From the IMG/VR virus record IMGVR_UViG_3300020418_000038, positions 1 to 27,087 of that record: a DNA stretch of 27,087 bases; one strand, 5' to 3'. The notes under the pieces are model-generated. The model saw only the letters and a program-made list of their open reading frames with translations, was not told the origin of the DNA and searched no databases. Position numbers and translations under genes: made by a program. Positions 2,124 through 13,515 of the stretch are shown here, in pieces; within the stretch, counting starts at the first letter, position 1, and each line of letters begins with the position of its first letter. This DNA comes from a virus.

Positions 2124-2207
2124 GTAGCGCCTTGCGATGCCACGCATTGCAGGGCGTTACATCGGGCACTTGCCCGGATTAGACACTGATACCGATGGAG
2201 ATTAGAC
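2124..2207 (+). repeat. Start-associated module 1 (two hairpins + SAS)
   Basis: Stem 1 pairs 2124-2135 with 2149-2160 (12 pairs including G-U). Stem 2 pairs CGGGC 2163-2167 with GCCCG 2172-2176. Then come ATTAGAC and GGAGATTAGAC directly before the ATG at 2208. Confidence 0.7.
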
Positions 2208-2447
2208 ATGCGTGTAGACACGACGATTGGCAGCAACATGGCCGAGATTGAGTTCGATAACGGCAACCGCGTACTTGTTTCGTACAAGACGCCGGTTGCG
2301 GCTTTCGTCTCAGGTCGCGGCTTTGTTCGCACGTCTCATAAATGGTCGGCGACGACGACACGCCATATAAACCAATGGCTGCCGGTCGCGGCGTCGACGG
2401 TCTCGCAAGGCGAGATTGAGCACGTCGCAAACGGCGGCACGCTGTAA
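2208..2447 (+). CDS. Small conserved phage protein (DUF8033-like?)
   Basis: This 79-residue protein opens the early operon behind GGAGATTAGACATG. The segment LVSYKTPVAAFV, then GRGFVRTSHKWSATTTRHINQWL, resembles a widespread small family in phages and haloarchaeal elements that I believe is catalogued as DUF8033. This assignment is from memory and uncertain. There is no signal peptide or membrane segment. The function is unknown. Its position next to the operator-controlled promoter suggests early expression after infection or induction. Confidence 0.7.
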   Translation: MRVDTTIGSNMAEIEFDNGNRVLVSYKTPVAAFVSGRGFVRTSHKWSATTTRHINQWLPVAASTVSQGEIEHVANGGTL

Positions 2448-2456
2448 ACGCCAGTC

Positions 2457-2536
2457 ATAGCGCATTCGTTAGCAATTCGCTAGCGGATGCGCTATCGCGG
2501 GCGATTGCCCGAACCAAGTAAAGCAAGGATTAAGAC
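2457..2536 (+). repeat. Start-associated module 2
   Basis: Stem 1 pairs 2457-2473 with 2479-2495: 17 pairs, two of them G-U, loop AATTC. Stem 2 pairs CGGGC 2498-2502 with GCCCG 2507-2511. The start sequence is the variant AGGATTAAGACATG. Confidence 0.75.
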
Positions 2537-2725
2537 ATGAGCAAGGCGATCAAAAGATATATCGCAGACCTTCCCGAAGGTCGATCTTTCCGTGATGCCG
2601 ATGGGCGAAGCGTTCGCACGACCCCCGGCAAAACACCCGAAGGGCGCTATTACTACGGAACACGCGAAGACGGAACACGGATATTCAGCCCTGATTATTG
2701 GCTTATGGCAAAGCCAGACTGTTAA
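2537..2725 (+). CDS. Small hypothetical protein
   Basis: This 62-residue basic-to-neutral protein is rich in Arg, Gly and Tyr (GRYYYGTREDGTRIF), which suggests a compact beta-rich fold. I do not recognise the family. The start is set by the preceding AGGATTAAGAC element, a one-base variant of the operon's start-associated sequence. It lies between two hairpin modules, like a removable cassette, and may be an accessory early gene such as a host-takeover or anti-defence factor; that is inference from position only. Confidence 0.55.
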   Translation: MSKAIKRYIADLPEGRSFRDADGRSVRTTPGKTPEGRYYYGTREDGTRIFSPDYWLMAKPDC

Positions 2726-2734
2726 GCGCCAGTC

Positions 2735-2808
2735 GATGCGCCTGCTACGGCGGGCGCATCTGCGGGCGTTTGCCCGGTCTGTATTTGATTCGATTTGGAG
2801 ATTAGACA
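2735..2808 (+). repeat. Start-associated module 3
   Basis: Stem 1 pairs 2735-2745 with 2750-2760 (11 pairs, one G-U, loop TACG). Stem 2 pairs CGGGC 2763-2767 with GCCCG 2772-2776. It ends in GGAGATTAGACA before the ATG at 2809. Confidence 0.75.
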
Positions 2809-3924
2809 ATGACTACTACTGAGATTGCACTAGAGGTCGGCCAGCGTGGTGATGCGGTTATCGACTCGACAAACCGCAACAAGGTTCGTAAATGGTTGCG
2901 CGGTCAAGGCGTTTCGTCTTATGTCGCGCGTACCGCGTCGATTCGAGACATGCGCCGTGCGTACAACGATACGTCGAACGCTTGCCTTCGCGACCTTATG
3001 GAGCGTGAAGCCGACGAAAGCAATGATGAAGCGCCGAGCGCGGCGGAAACGAACGGCAAAAGCCGCGAAGATAAGTTGCGCGAAGCGCTGGCCGGTCTTG
3101 TCGAATCCGAGTTAGACGAAAGCCGCGTGATTGAGCTTATTCGCGAGCACGCGCCGGAGTCGAAGCCGATGCGTTTCGAAGTACAGCAAGGCGACGTGAC
3201 GCGCGCTGTCGAAGGCGCGCAACACGAAGCATTGCCGCGTGTTCTGGCGTTCTGCGGCGCTGGCGTCCATGTATGGATGGCCGGGCCGTCGGGCTCAGGC
3301 AAAACGCATATGGCGAAACAAGTTGCCGACGGGCTTGGTCGAGACTTCTACTCGACCGGCGCTGTCAATTCTGACTTTCGCCTTGTCGGCTTTGTCGACG
3401 CGAAAGGCGAGTATCAGCGCACGCCTTTCCGTGAAGCGTTCGAGCATGGCGGCGTGTTTTTGTGGGACGAGATCGACGCATCGAATCCCAACGCGCTCGT
3501 CGCCTTCAATCAGGCGCTTTCGAACGGCCATTACACGTTCCCTGATGGGATGGTCGAAGCGCATCCTAATTTTGTGGCTATCGCTGCCGCGAATACATGG
3601 GGACACGGCGCAACGGCTGAGTATGTCGGCCGCACTCGGATCGACGCAGCAACGGTTAACCGTTTCGCCCAAGTCAATATCGACTATGACGAAACGCTAG
3701 AAACCGAGCTGGCCGGTCAATTCGACTCGTGGGCGCGCACTGTGCAGACCGCACGGCACGCGGCTCGCGAGCACGGCATCAAGGCGGTTATCACGCCGCG
3801 TGACACGGTGCAGGGCGCGATAATGCTCGCGGCCGGCATGGACACGCAAGACGTGATTGACGCCTTCATTCGGCGCGGCATGGATGACACAAGCTGGTCG
3901 AAAATACACGCCGCGATTCAGTGA
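2809..3924 (+). CDS. MoxR/CobS-like AAA+ ATPase
   Basis: This 371-residue AAA+ ATPase has Walker A GPSGSGKT at residues 159-166, Walker B VFLWDEID at 216-223, a sensor-1 Asn in AIAAANTW (about 257-264), and an arginine-rich GRTRIDAATVNRF segment at 274-286. The motif spacing and the sequence around Walker B resemble the AAA_5/CobS group, which remodels partner proteins. The first 70 residues form a charged helical domain specific to this protein. There are no cobalamin genes nearby, so the cobaltochelatase role is not expected. In phages such ATPases often sit beside a dedicated partner, here probably the gene at 4001-4810. Start is fixed by GGAGATTAGACAATG. Confidence 0.85.
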   Translation: MTTTEIALEVGQRGDAVIDSTNRNKVRKWLRGQGVSSYVARTASIRDMRRAYNDTSNACLRDLMEREADESNDEAPSAAETNGKSREDKLREALAGLVESELDESRVIELIREHAPESKPMRFEVQQGDVTRAVEGAQHEALPRVLAFCGAGVHVWMAGPSGSGKTHMAKQVADGLGRDFYSTGAVNSDFRLVGFVDAKGEYQRTPFREAFEHGGVFLWDEIDASNPNALVAFNQALSNGHYTFPDGMVEAHPNFVAIAAANTWGHGATAEYVGRTRIDAATVNRFAQVNIDYDETLETELAGQFDSWARTVQTARHAAREHGIKAVITPRDTVQGAIMLAAGMDTQDVIDAFIRRGMDDTSWSKIHAAIQ

Positions 3925-3931
3925 TCCAGAC

Positions 3932-4000
3932 GAAGCGCCTTTCGGGGCGCTTCATCGGGCTCACTGCCCGGATTCGATTCGATTAGATGGAGATTAGACA
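3932..4000 (+). repeat. Start-associated module 4
   Basis: Stem 1 pairs 3932-3940 with 3945-3953 (nine pairs, one G-U) closed by a TTCG tetraloop. Stem 2 pairs CGGGC 3956-3960 with GCCCG 3966-3970. GATTAGATGGAGATTAGACA precedes the ATG at 4001. Confidence 0.75.
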
Positions 4001-4810
4001 ATGCTTATTCAACGGCAATTTAACGATTGGTCGCAGTTCGCGAGCACGATTGAAAGCCGCATTGGCGAAACGTGTTGGCACGAAGCCAGCACGCGCACGT
4101 CATCATGGTATGCCGAGTTTTCTCAAACCGGCTCGCTACAAGATGCGGTTGATCTTGTTCGCAATGGCTGGCCCGAAGGCACGCAGAAGCTGATTGACGG
4201 CCTCGAAGCTTTCGATGCGGGCCGCATGGTCTCGCCAGTGCCTACTATCGAATGGGACGTGGCGGGCGAATGCCCGGACGTGGCCGCGTACTGCGCGGGC
4301 ATCCCTGAGCATATGGCGACGCAGGAGTTTGAAACTGAGCAATCGTCGCCGCTGGTCTCGATCAGCGTAAACGGCGCGGCTGCTTGGAGAATCGACTCTA
4401 GCCGCATCATTCGCTACGGCGTGATGATCGCGTCGCATGTCCGCGCACTATTGCAGGCCGGATATTCGCCGCGCCTTGACTGGTGTTGCGCACTCAACGG
4501 CAACGGTCGCAAAAATTACCTTATGACCGTGCCGCTGCTCGAACGCGGCGAAACGGTCGATATTGACCGGATCGCGTTCGCTATCGCACACCCGTCGATG
4601 CTGCGCCGCGCGATGTTCGCGGTTGCAGAGATCGAAGGCTGGCGCGGTCTTGGTCAGTCGATGGGCTCGGTTATGAATACCCTGCCCGCCGAGATCGCCG
4701 ACGACTATGACGTATCGCTGCCCGGTATCGGCTCGCTTAGCGCGTTTATGGATACCGACGAAAACGCGAAGGCAGCCGTGTCGCCTTATTTCAACCAATT
4801 CAATGAGTAG
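4001..4810 (+). CDS. Probable partner of the AAA+ ATPase (DUF7192-like?)
   Basis: This 269-residue soluble protein has an N-terminal segment WYAEFSQTGSLQDAVDLVRNGWPEG. That pattern, a W-x-G/T loop then an RNGWPEG turn, resembles a phage family I believe is listed as DUF7192 and that often follows a CobS-like ATPase. The middle part (residues about 115-165) alternates beta strands and a helix around RYGVMIASHVRALLQAGY. No metal-binding motif or catalytic residue can be named. Being immediately downstream of the ATPase, with the same module in front, suggests the two proteins act together. The family name is from memory. Confidence 0.65.
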   Translation: MLIQRQFNDWSQFASTIESRIGETCWHEASTRTSSWYAEFSQTGSLQDAVDLVRNGWPEGTQKLIDGLEAFDAGRMVSPVPTIEWDVAGECPDVAAYCAGIPEHMATQEFETEQSSPLVSISVNGAAAWRIDSSRIIRYGVMIASHVRALLQAGYSPRLDWCCALNGNGRKNYLMTVPLLERGETVDIDRIAFAIAHPSMLRRAMFAVAEIEGWRGLGQSMGSVMNTLPAEIADDYDVSLPGIGSLSAFMDTDENAKAAVSPYFNQFNE

Positions 4811-4817
4811 TCCAGAC

Positions 4818-4887
4818 GAAGCGCCTTGCGGGGCGCTTCATCGGGCCTACTGGCCTGCACTTGATTCGATTGGATGCGCCAGCATCC
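4818..4887 (+). repeat. Orphan start-associated module 5a (possible gene-loss scar)
   Basis: Stem 1 pairs 4818-4826 with 4831-4839 (loop TGCG). Stem 2 pairs CGGGCC 4842-4847 with GGCCTG 4852-4857. TTGATTCGATTGGA, the usual lead-in to the start sequence, follows but has no ATTAGACATG and no gene. Instead GGATGCGCCAGCATCC (4872-4887) runs straight into the next module. Confidence 0.65.
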
Positions 4888-4962
4888 GCATAAGCGCCTG
4901 AGACAAGAGGCAGGCGCTTATGCGGGCGCTGGCCCGGATACCCGATTAGATGGAGATTAGAC
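4888..4962 (+). repeat. Start-associated module 5b
   Basis: A perfect 13-bp stem pairs 4888-4900 with 4911-4923 around a 10-base loop. Stem 2 pairs CGGGC 4923-4927 with GCCCG 4932-4936. GATGGAGATTAGACATG leads into the gene at 4963. Confidence 0.75.
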
Positions 4963-5202
4963 ATGGCAAAAACGACCATTAACAGCCCGATTACTGGCCC
5001 GCGAACGTTTTTCATCGCAACGGATACCCCCGGCGAAAGCCGGTATGTATTCGTCGACGATAACGGCGAGCCCGGCGTTCTCGGTAAACAGCCGACATAC
5101 CCCGGCGGCGCGACAATGACCGCAACGCCTGAGACGCTGCCGAGAATCGCGCGCCAATGGCACAAAGCCGACCTTCGCGAGCGGCGCGAGTTCGGCGCGT
5201 AG
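4963..5202 (+). CDS. Small hypothetical protein
   Basis: This 79-residue protein is not recognised. The first half looks like beta strands (RTFFIATDTPGESRYVFVDD), the last 20 residues a charged helix ending REFGA. It has no cysteine, signal peptide or membrane segment. The start is fixed by GGAGATTAGACATG behind module 5b. It is followed after 32 bases by the next gene of the operon with only the short start-associated sequence between them. Confidence 0.6.
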   Translation: MAKTTINSPITGPRTFFIATDTPGESRYVFVDDNGEPGVLGKQPTYPGGATMTATPETLPRIARQWHKADLRERREFGA

Positions 5203-5234
5203 CACCCCAAAACCCGATTAGACGGAGATTAGAC
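5203..5234 (+). repeat. Short start-associated sequence without hairpins
   Basis: CCCGATTAGACGGAGATTAGAC holds two TTAGAC copies before the ATG at 5235. This is the only early intergenic space that lacks both hairpins. Confidence 0.7.
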
Positions 5235-5519
5235 ATGACGAAAAGCGCAAAGCTCGCCGACCTCGAACGCATCATCGGTCGCATTAACGACATGACGGTA
5301 TCGCCGCGCGAGCCGGTCAACGATGGCGTCTGGAACGTCGACAATTACCACCTGTGCCGTTCTGGCGGCGGATTCGCCCTTGTGCGCGTGGTCAATGCGG
5401 ACGGCGCCGTTCGCACCGTGATTGCCTGCGACACGAAGCGCGAGCTGTTTTCGCGGCTGCAAGCCTATGTCGATGGCCTGCTCGACGGTAAACAGATCGC
5501 GAGCTGTGCTCGGCGATGA
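5235..5519 (+). CDS. Small hypothetical protein
   Basis: This 94-residue protein begins at the ATG behind GGAGATTAGAC; a 26-codon upstream extension in the same frame is unlikely because it would overlap the previous gene. The predicted fold is a helix (KLADLERIIGRINDM), then a beta-rich core (NYHLCRSGGGFALVRVVNADG), then a C-terminal helix. I do not recognise a family or catalytic motif. It is probably an accessory early protein. Confidence 0.6.
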   Translation: MTKSAKLADLERIIGRINDMTVSPREPVNDGVWNVDNYHLCRSGGGFALVRVVNADGAVRTVIACDTKRELFSRLQAYVDGLLDGKQIASCARR

Positions 5520-5528
5520 TCGCCAGTC

Positions 5529-5599
5529 GATGCGCCTGCCCTTGCGGGCGCATCTGCGGGCGATTGCCCGGTTCCACCCGATTAGATGGAGACACGATT
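5529..5599 (+). repeat. Start-associated module 6
   Basis: Stem 1 pairs 5529-5539 with 5544-5554 (11 pairs, loop CCTT). Stem 2 pairs CGGGC 5557-5561 with GCCCG 5566-5570. The start sequence here has changed to GATGGAGACACGATTATG. Confidence 0.75.
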
Positions 5600-5962
5600 A
5601 TGATTACGTCACTGACGGCGTTTACAATCTGGCCGCATGGCCCGCGATTCGATCTTGATATGACCCGATACACAGTGACTTGGGACAACAACCCCGACCT
5701 TGAGTTCGAAGGCGAGCTAGTGTCTGCCGTGTCGTCTCGACAAGGCGCGTCGCCGCAATGGACAGAGCTTGAGCTATACCGTACAGATTCTGGCAAGTAC
5801 GTCTGCCATAAGATCGGCCGCACAACGAAACGCGGGCAGCGCGACTTTCACTCTTGCGCGGTTTGCGAATCCGACGCCGAGATTACCGGATTTTTCGGGT
5901 TCGGCTACCTATCGAAACAGCTCTATGAAGCGGCGGGCGTGCAGCACGCGCAGCGCATATAA
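5600..5962 (+). CDS. Conserved hypothetical protein, last gene of the early operon
   Basis: This 120-residue protein ends the rightward early operon. The central part (WTELELYRTDSGKYVCHKIG) followed by a CAVC pair and FFGFGYLSKQLYEAAG resembles small mobile-element proteins I have seen without a known function. The ATG at 5600 has GGAG eight bases upstream; an internal ATG at 5658 is a possible alternative since residues 1-19 look less conserved. One CxxC pair is not enough for a complete zinc site. Confidence 0.6.
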   Translation: MITSLTAFTIWPHGPRFDLDMTRYTVTWDNNPDLEFEGELVSAVSSRQGASPQWTELELYRTDSGKYVCHKIGRTTKRGQRDFHSCAVCESDAEITGFFGFGYLSKQLYEAAGVQHAQRI

Positions 5963-5994: not shown

Positions 5995-6085
5995 ACTAAC
6001 TGCCAACCGGAGGAAAGTTTGCGTTTTAGGCGCAATTCGCCAGATTGGTTAGAATTGTACTAATCTGTTGCACCCCTGTCAACCC

Positions 6086-11972: not shown

Positions 11973-12578
11973 ATGATCGAGGACACACGAAGGGAAAACC
12001 TAAAAGCCCTTGTGGAAGAACTCGGGGGACGTTCGGTGCTGGCGGATTTGATGGGATGCCGCCCGAACTACATTAGCCAGCTCGCACACGGTCACGCTTC
12101 ATTCGGGCCGCGCGCCGCGCGCCGCATCGAGGACGCGGCTGAGCTTTCGAAAGGCTGGATTGACACCCCGCGTGACATGAACATCCACCAGCTTCCGGTC
12201 TTGGCGCCTAGTGAGACGTTGCTGCCCGTCAAGCAGCGGCGAAACTTAGAACCCAAGAGGCACGCGACTTTTATGCTAGAAAAGAAGTCAGAGAGCGCTT
12301 TCGCCGTACAGGTCGAGGACTCACTGATGACCGGAGGGGAGACGGCATCGTTTCCAGTCGGAACGATTATCGCGGTCGAGCCGGAGATTGAGCCCCAAGA
12401 GGATCAGTTCGTATGGGCGACGCCCGACAACGAGGAAACGCCAGTCTTTCGCAAGCTCACGCGCGACGGTGCGAGCTGGTATCTGGCGCCGACCAATCAG
12501 CGTTACCCGGTCAAGCCGATTAGCGACTTAGACCGGATCATCGGCGTCGTCACGTCGGCGCAGCAGTCGCTTCTATGA
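11973..12578 (+). CDS. CI/LexA-like phage repressor
   Basis: This 201-residue protein has an N-terminal helix-turn-helix (about residues 17-45, with GGRSVLADLMGCRPNYISQL). Its C-terminal domain is of the S24 peptidase type: VEDSLMTGG (Ser 117), SFPVGTIIAVEP, and VFRKLTRDG (Lys 161), the expected Ser-Lys pair for self-cleavage. No Ala-Gly cleavage bond is evident between the domains, so induction by cleavage is uncertain. AGAGG precedes the ATG. It should maintain lysogeny through the GTTAG-N7-CTAAC operators and is followed by a strong terminator. Confidence 0.85.
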   Translation: MIEDTRRENLKALVEELGGRSVLADLMGCRPNYISQLAHGHASFGPRAARRIEDAAELSKGWIDTPRDMNIHQLPVLAPSETLLPVKQRRNLEPKRHATFMLEKKSESAFAVQVEDSLMTGGETASFPVGTIIAVEPEIEPQEDQFVWATPDNEETPVFRKLTRDGASWYLAPTNQRYPVKPISDLDRIIGVVTSAQQSLL

Positions 12579-12636: not shown

Positions 12637-12666
12637 TTGCCTCATAGGTTAGTGCCGTGCTAACCT
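12637..12666 (+). promoter_or_regulatory. Promoter of the recombination operon
   Basis: TTGCCT (12637-12642), 18 bases, TAACCT (12661-12666), with operator 12648-12664 between and overlapping the -10. Same geometry as the early promoter at 1938-1966. The -35 is weak. Confidence 0.5.
12648..12664. promoter_or_regulatory. Repressor operator O6
   Basis: GTTAGTGCCGTGCTAAC, differing by one base from the site at 721-737. Confidence 0.7.
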
Positions 12667-12693: not shown

Positions 12694-13515
12694 ATGACCG
12701 ACACGCAGCCTGCCGAGACAGGCGACCCGCGAAACCTGTTGCAGCGCCTCAACGCAGTGCGCGAGCACGTCGCGTATATCAAAAAAGACCTTGACACCAA
12801 CGGCTACAGCGCCGTCTCGCACGATGCCGTGACAGCCGCCGTTCGCCCCGCCTTCATCGACGAGGGCGTGATGGTATTGCCGACCGAGCGTGAGCACGAG
12901 GTTCAAGCCACGTCGCAGACCACGCGCGGCGGCACGCCGATCATGCTTACCGTCGTCACGCTCGACGTTCGGTTTGCCAACGTCGACGATCCCGAGCAGA
13001 CGGTCTACGCCCGCGTCACCGCGCAGGCGCTCGACCACGGCGACAAGGGGCCGGGCAAGGCATGGTCGTATGCGGTCAAGACCGCGATGCTCAAGGTGCT
13101 CTCGCTTGAGACGGGCGAGAACGACGAATCGCGCGTCGAAATGGTGCAGCGGCAAACGCCGATCACCGCGCAGCAGTACCAATACCTGAGCGACCTTCTC
13201 GAATCCGCAGGGCGCAGCGAGGCACAGCTTATCGACGTGCTCAAGCGCAGCGGCATGGAGATCGAGGCGCTTACCGACATGACCGAAGCCGAGTATGGCG
13301 TCGCCGTGTCTAAGGTCGAGGATTCCATTCGCCGCCAGAAGCGCCAGCAGGAAGCCGAGCGCGAGCGCGCCGAGGCGATGGACGGCGAAGGCGAGGCCAA
13401 GACCGAGGCCAAGACCGAGTCGAAGCCGAAGAAGTCGACGAGCAAGAAGTCGACCGGCAAAAGCCAGACCGCCAAGAAATCGAGCGCCAAGAGCGACGCC
13501 AAGGCGGAGGGCTAA
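12694..13515 (+). CDS. erf: ERF-family single-strand annealing protein
   Basis: This 273-residue recombinase resembles the ERF family. The N-terminal part shows the typical VAYIKKDLDTNGYSAVSHDA start, then a beta-rich core and DHGDKGPGKAWSYAVKTAML (about residues 110-130), the family hallmark (DxGDKG, then Y-A-x-K). ERF proteins anneal complementary single strands made by a partner exonuclease, here the YqaJ protein just downstream. The last 60 residues are a low-complexity Lys/Ser/Glu tail. GGAGG precedes the ATG. It is under operator O6. Confidence 0.85.
   Translation: MTDTQPAETGDPRNLLQRLNAVREHVAYIKKDLDTNGYSAVSHDAVTAAVRPAFIDEGVMVLPTEREHEVQATSQTTRGGTPIMLTVVTLDVRFANVDDPEQTVYARVTAQALDHGDKGPGKAWSYAVKTAMLKVLSLETGENDESRVEMVQRQTPITAQQYQYLSDLLESAGRSEAQLIDVLKRSGMEIEALTDMTEAEYGVAVSKVEDSIRRQKRQQEAERERAEAMDGEGEAKTEAKTESKPKKSTSKKSTGKSQTAKKSSAKSDAKAEG

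Follow-up and report, generated by a model that had tools for sequence, protein, structure and literature searches.

The described elements that appear nearest in kind to those treated here are start-associated hairpin elements of phages, such as the start-associated sequences (SAS) and extended SAS (ESAS) of the cluster K mycobacteriophages. According to the passages of PMC3203893 that deal with them, they are repeated before the starts of many genes belonging to different families and consist of a short start-associated sequence and an upstream inverted repeat with a variable spacer. A comparable arrangement exists in the 27-kb virus record IMGVR_UViG_3300020418_000038 of IMG/VR, whose 27,087 nucleotides (nt) were analysed as a whole (the window). 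Seven genes on the plus strand (2208-5962) constitute the operon under study, and nearly all of its gene junctions carry a repeated module with the order stop codon, X, GCCAG, stem 1, CGGGC-X'-GCCCG, ribosome-binding site and start codon. Sequence comparisons and fold predictions support the view that this module is a three-helix RNA element, two helices of which are mutually exclusive, and that it is kept at gene junctions in phages otherwise little alike. As far as the cited passages go, modules and SAS/ESAS share the repetition before start codons, the inverted repeat upstream and the linkage with different gene families. On the other hand, ESAS is described there as one 17-bp imperfect inverted repeat, without report of a second hairpin or a competing third arm, whereas the inverted repeats of the modules comprise 9-17 bp of different sequence, a second fold competes with the first, and a variable arm matches the end of the upstream gene. 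The likeness to SAS/ESAS pointed out in an earlier note on this DNA holds for the concept only and does not extend to the sequence, as the 13-bp SAS GGGATAGGAGCCC occurs in the window at chance level (10 matches with up to three mismatches, 6.6 expected) and at none of these starts.

The third arm, which covaries and had been overlooked in the earlier note, is the segment X just 5' of CCAG, which pairs with X', the loop of stem 2. CGGGC and X' have two possible partners, the downstream GCCCG (stem 2) and the upstream X-GCCAG (P1), and the two folds are mutually exclusive; GCCAG and GCCCG, one letter apart, are rivals for the same CGGGC. The most stable predicted fold of several modules differs from the combination of stem 1 and stem 2. 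In modules following a gene, X touches or overlaps the stop codon of that gene. The pairs found in the window are AAGTGCC/GGCACTT (module A), AAGCGCC/GGCGTTT (C), AGTGA.CC/GG.TCACT (D), AGTAG.CC/GG.CTACT (E1) and GATCGCC/GGCGATT (G), and most upstream pairings retain a purine-purine mismatch, which is A-G in all copies but one (G-G). Within the window, X pairs better with its own X' than after swapping (p 0.0013, 0/2000 shuffles; p 0.0015 in a second test). In a fixed register, 108 of the 147 cells of 21 modules were paired, compared to 39-53 when the arms were slid by one to three bases and a mean of 72 when X was dealt among the modules; the permutation p value was 0.0016 for the window and below 0.00005 for 14 modules from elsewhere. 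Thermodynamic X-X' duplexes agree: p was 0.006 for the 15 non-redundant modules from other contigs, none of 20,000 permutations did as well for all 22 non-redundant ones, and most X-X' positions show several pair types. Because the search pattern by which relatives were collected fixed CCAG, GCGCC and CGGGC and left X and X' free outside the GCC/GGC core, the pairing beyond this core is not circular. We considered a pseudoknot between X and the loop of stem 2 but dismissed it, since X' abuts GCCCG without a linker that could cross the helix and P1 uses the CGGGC strand itself. Recombination sites of the attC type were likewise rejected, as the outer helix differs in each module.

All modules of the window lie on the plus strand. 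Module A in the leader (2113-2176) has X at 2113-2119 pairing with 2165-2171, a stem 1 of 17 pairs at 2124-2140/2144-2160 and the alternative stem 2 at 2163-2167/2172-2176; its long form is favoured. Module B (2449-2511) follows the stop codon TAA at 2445-2447 and comprises P1 (2449-2452/2500-2503), stem 1 (2457-2473/2479-2495) and stem 2 (2498-2502/2507-2511). In module C (2724-2776; P1 2724-2730/2765-2771, stem 1 2735-2745/2750-2760, stem 2 2763-2767/2772-2776) the stop codon TAA at 2723-2725 overlaps X, and the same applies to TGA at 5517-5519 in module G (5518-5570; P1 5518-5524/5559-5565, stem 1 5529-5539/5544-5554, stem 2 5557-5561/5566-5570). In module D (3920-3970) the stop codon TGA (3922-3924) lies inside X; P1 is formed by 3920-3924 and 3926-3927 with 3958-3959 and 3961-3965, stem 1 by 3932-3940/3945-3953 and stem 2 by 3956-3960/3966-3970. 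The gap at 4811-4962 turned out to hold two modules in tandem, which corrects the earlier note. E1 (4806-4857), with TAG at 4808-4810 inside X, has P1 at 4806-4810 and 4812-4813 paired with 4844-4845 and 4847-4851, stem 1 at 4818-4826/4831-4839 and stem 2 (CGGGCC/GGCCTG) at 4842-4847/4852-4857. E2 (4880-4936) is an outlier in register (4880-4883/4928-4931; stem 1 4888-4900/4911-4923; stem 2 4923-4927/4932-4936), and was recovered by model R1 at 26 bits though absent from the set from which this model was built.

The stems listed in the earlier note are all present base by base (17 pairs at 2457-2495, 11 at 2735-2760, nine with a TTCG loop at 3932-3953, 13 at 4888-4923 and 11 at 5529-5554). It had assigned the module to the leader and six intergenic spaces, which is correct for the leader and five of the spaces, while the gap at 5203-5234 (plus strand) contains the ribosome-binding motif alone (GATTAGACGGAGATTAGACATG), without hairpins. 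The start motif GATTAGATGGAGATTAGACAATG, which forms the ribosome-binding tail, is located at 3981-4003 on the plus strand, with other copies or variants at 2194-2210, 2789-2811, 4944-4965, 5216-5237 and 5580-5602. It was said to follow the stems unchanged or as a variant; exact copies are confined to 3981 and 4944, that at 5216 has one change, and the others are variants. The two stem-loops of a module lie 0-2 nt apart, and stem 1 has a length of approximately 8-17 bp. On the plus strand, the fold z-scores of the hairpin modules range from -8.0 to -2.7. Stem 1 and stem 2 cells are paired in 97.6% of cases compared to 88.2% in shuffles, none of 500 shuffles matched their covariation score, and changes on both sides of stem 1 exceed those in shuffled columns. 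CGGGC-N4-GCCCG occurs six times in the window (0.13 expected), five times in modules and once within a gene. This sixth copy (CGGGCGAATGCCCG, 4263-4276 in gene 4) has no clear stem 1 ahead of it and is probably due to chance.

A pattern derived from the window's modules was scanned over 2.9 million viral contigs and detected relatives in nine metagenomic contigs besides the window's own phage (L142, L174, L182, L183, L185, L186, L188, L190 and L280; L186 and L188 are near kin). They are intergenic and have a closed stem 1; a stop codon precedes them, a ribosome-binding site follows in most cases, and their local G+C content amounts to 47-66%. Hardly any proteins are common to these contigs and the window; the loci compared, which exclude L280, gave only distant matches of the small terminase and a helicase. 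The phage of L183 possesses at least six modules in one operon (at about 2790, 3371, 4314, 4742, 6000 and 6930 of locus L313), among them copies in which both arms of stem 2 have changed with the pairing kept (CGGTC/GACCG and CGGCC/GGCCG). Other repeated hairpins (GGTTGCC..GGCGACC) precede a similar ribosome-binding tail at 2544-2614 and 5740-5810 of L313 and fall outside the family as defined here. Altogether 27 modules were curated, with anchors set by hand, sampling seeded by the pattern and rough E-values from a short calibration. A structural descriptor combined with flanking open frames retrieved 13 modules in the family loci versus seven dissimilar matches in 1.45 Mb of other viral DNA, and looser patterns gave mainly GC-rich coding matches. 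In an alignment of 16 modules, stem 1 was paired in nearly all cells, and four pairs were changed on both sides. Of the 144 cells of stem 1, 19 are G-U on the plus strand and only two are unpaired; G-U cells on this strand point to the transcript, rather than to duplex DNA. The suggestion that RNA structure is under selection is thereby strengthened.

The modules match no Rfam family and were not found in named phages by the similarity searches used. For the window, Rfam yielded no match at the gathering score, and the sub-threshold matches of an E-value search were unconvincing. With blastn and megablast, the window and single modules gave no match, or matches with E above 0.5 only, among 50,697 named phages, and model R2 had no significant match in Shewanella phage SppYZU01, Klebsiella phage RCIP0030, phage TPWB-08 and HK022. 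In the genomes of 84,980 species of bacteria and archaea, a scan returned 37 matches, of which those with a good stem 1 resemble GC-rich chance, so that no cellular copy is claimed. In Streptomyces phage phiScoe25 (L321), hairpins around GGTTCGAGTCC are repeated before start codons, e.g. in the gaps at 1429-1526, 2075-2155 and 3657-3753. They resemble the T arm of tRNA and constitute a different repeated junction element. The 4.5-kb contig L005 (IMGVR_UViG_3300020432_000476) encodes an ATPase 100% identical over 309 amino acids (aa) to that of the window and carries the same modules A, B and C; it is the only close relative and seems to be the window's phage in a second sample.

The two folds are close in energy, with a median gap of 1.5 kcal/mol and at most 4 kcal/mol in 25 of the 27 modules (free 3' arm versus blocked X). 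The CC of CCAG is preceded by a stop codon at a distance of 1-12 nt in 25 of 27 modules (all except A in the leader and E2), and in 25 modules a start codon follows stem 2 after 13-32 nt. For 24 modules as naked RNA, the partition function predicts an upstream pairing of 0.54 versus 0.16 for stem 2; when X was covered, mimicking a terminating ribosome, the predicted mean occupancy of stem 2 rose from 0.16 to 0.76. In attenuators of the trp leader type, three strands compete, the first being masked by a ribosome at the stop codon so that the last two pair. By comparison and prediction, the modules are like ribosome-controlled attenuators in having exclusive helices that share one strand. They differ from them in that most copies have no terminator or U tract after stem 2, that they are repeated between real genes and that no leader peptide was identified. 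A T-rich tail follows module C only, and the six terminator-like sites in the region compare to 5.2 expected by chance. Since the terminator is lacking, the modules cannot be counted among the attenuators. Translational coupling by RNA unfolding is known from f1 VII/IX, MS2 coat/lysis and rpmI-rplT (reviewed in PMC12548453). In these systems, as proposed here for the modules, the ribosome ending the upstream gene alters the RNA structure before the next one. Coupling systems hide the ribosome-binding site, whereas the predicted access to that of the modules is the same in both states (0.45 and 0.45).

We tentatively favour the reading, with a little less than an even chance of being correct, that the module is a cis-acting two-state RNA at gene-cassette junctions, under the control of the ribosome completing translation of the upstream gene. 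Covariation and fold predictions support a state 1, in which CGGGC-X' pairs with the upstream X-GCCAG in one imperfect hairpin of about 19 bp beginning at the stop codon, and a state 2, in which it pairs with the downstream GCCCG and two separate hairpins result. A ribosome terminating 1-12 nt upstream would cover X and bring about state 2, while without a ribosome state 1 would prevail. The output, the least certain step, might be the fate of the junction rather than exposure of the Shine-Dalgarno sequence. State 1 might seal the junction by stopping post-termination scanning, by blocking exonucleases or by offering RNase III a duplex of two turns. State 2 would spare the junction and leave stem 2 as the 5' hairpin of the next message. 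A sealing role agrees with a library screen in which, as summarised in PMC12548453, structure right after the stop codon lowers coupling. As X has to match the end of the upstream gene, the loop X' would be re-adapted whenever a new gene is joined.

Several points weigh against this reading. Gating by the ribosome is deduced from position, and the location of X at the stop codon may simply reflect that the module directly adjoins the gene. No gene precedes the leader copy, E2 has a different X-X' register, and some X-X' helices are weak (B, L186 and the L313 copy at 4314). CCAG, GCGCC and CGGGC cannot count as evidence in most modules outside the window because the pattern fixed them, and the changes on both sides of stem 2 in L313 were first noticed by visual inspection and afterwards retrieved with a descriptor that itself requires stem 2. 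Moreover, the predicted access to the Shine-Dalgarno sequence is on average equal in the three states compared (0.45, 0.45 and 0.46), and in an in silico insulation test the module did not reduce the dependence on the upstream context. Translation control by hiding of the Shine-Dalgarno sequence, one of the functions envisaged in the earlier note, is thus not borne out by the predictions, and the output is probably other than simple occlusion of the site.

The strongest competing explanation is a constitutive element for processing or stability that does not sense ribosomes. An RNase III cut or an exonuclease block would give each gene its own protected messenger RNA (mRNA), and stem 2 would be the 5' hairpin remaining after the cut. 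The RNase III sites of the T7 early region are structured RNA between the genes of a polycistronic message. The modules resemble them in structure and position, being situated between stop codon and ribosome-binding site, and the predicted helix of state 1 has a median of 19 bp over 23 positions, i.e. the approximately two RNA turns of such a duplex, compared to about 8-17 bp for stem 1 alone. It also suits this explanation that no U tract follows the stems, save the T-rich stretch after module C. We know of no T7 site, however, that switches between two folds, and neither the nearly equal fold energies nor the purine-purine mismatch kept in P1 is by itself required for processing, which we regard as unlikely, though by no means far-fetched. 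Very improbable, by contrast, is an RNA antiterminator of the HK022 put type, whose adjacent stem-loops in the nascent RNA would bind RNA polymerase, suppress pausing or termination, and be renewed at each junction. Like put RNA (PMC9378689), the modules have about 50-70 nt and two adjacent stem-loops, here 0-2 nt apart, with one copy in the operon leader, and most have no terminator-like tail. But put RNAs occur twice per genome, not once per gene, are located downstream of early promoters and have internal bulges and a triplex (PMC9378689), while the modules are repeated at each junction and possess an alternative long fold. Searching HK022 25000-40751 with R2 gave nothing at E up to 5; this segment was picked without put coordinates, and no reverse search with a put model was made.

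The possibility, raised in the earlier note, that the modules are points of recombination at which cassettes are swapped is borne out in one clear case, L315/L316, and in L186/L188. In L315 and L316 the same outer genes (proteins 85% and 96% identical) enclose two genes or one different gene, respectively, with a module at each junction; different genes between modules in related phages, as the note had proposed to look for, were thus found. In L186 and L188, the module and the downstream gene (97% identical) are common to both, and the upstream genes are unrelated, so that X differs. Within the window, a truncated start motif lies between E1 and E2, possibly the trace of a lost gene or cassette. 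A small open reading frame at 4873-4960 starts at the ATG of the truncated motif, crosses E2 and ends with TAG just before the start of the next gene; it is possibly a remnant of such a cassette. Relatives of the ATPase (43-49% identical) revealed no modules by the descriptor, which suggests that the modules travel separately from genes and are not tied to the ATPase gene. In the promoter-early stem-loop cassettes (PeSL) of T4-type phages, intergenic stem-loops with an early promoter between them are linked with the shuffling of genes. The modules are similar in being intergenic stem-loop cassettes tied to gene shuffling, but no promoter-like site was found in those of the window.

From these exchanges it might be concluded that the modules are recombination joints at the DNA level, serving as short homology or as folded single strands, with the help of the Erf-like annealing protein encoded at 12694-13515. 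The whole-gene differences between L315 and L316, the upstream gene that differs at the common module of L186/L188 and the resemblance of E1-E2 to a scar of cassette loss are in line with it. Such joints need no two alternative folds, and the G-U pairs on the plus strand, the fixed orientation, the placement before start codons and the adaptation of X' to the end of the upstream gene would be left unexplained; hence, we consider this explanation improbable. Slightly more doubtful still is an operator for an RNA-binding protein of the phage or host that represses or times the translation of each gene. While the invariant CCAG and CGGGC flanking a variable stem 1 might be taken for a protein-binding site, pairing explains these letters as well, and in most relatives the search pattern had prescribed them. 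In addition, the loops are unconserved, and no gene common to all compared loci was found that could encode such a protein.

To judge by its genes for an integrase, a CI-like repressor, an Erf-like protein, a primase, a helicase and a small terminase, the window's phage is temperate. The seven genes of the operon, all on the plus strand, encode a 79-aa protein of phrog_5643 with unknown function (gene 1, 2208-2447), a 62-aa protein without family (gene 2, 2537-2725), the AAA ATPase of 371 aa (gene 3, 2809-3924; phrog_249), a 269-aa protein of phrog_1909 with unknown function (gene 4, 4001-4810), a 79-aa protein without family (gene 5, 4963-5202), a 94-aa protein with a weak match to phrog_15513 (gene 6, 5235-5519) and a 120-aa protein without family (gene 7, 5600-5962). 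The palindrome TTAGTNNNNNACTAA (up to one mismatch) is present in four copies in the window compared to 0.08 expected (722-736, 1949-1963, 6049-6063 and 12649-12663). The exact copy at 1949-1963 lies 5' of the operon, close to a TTGACG box; a further copy directly follows the CI-like gene (11973-12578). These palindromes may be repressor operators.

It is conceivable, with about the same reserve as for the gating itself, that the modules represent an undescribed family of phage RNAs: a bistable junction element repeated at gene boundaries, whose loop is fitted to the sequence around the stop codon of the upstream gene and whose fold is flipped by terminating ribosomes, so that newly joined cassettes come under the same control. 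Phage operons are assembled from small genes that can be exchanged, and it is an open question by what means a new gene is fitted to its neighbours. If the proposal is true, a portable junction RNA that reads upstream translation and is re-matched to the upstream gene would be a concrete answer, and in uncultured phages it would mark the boundaries of cassettes.

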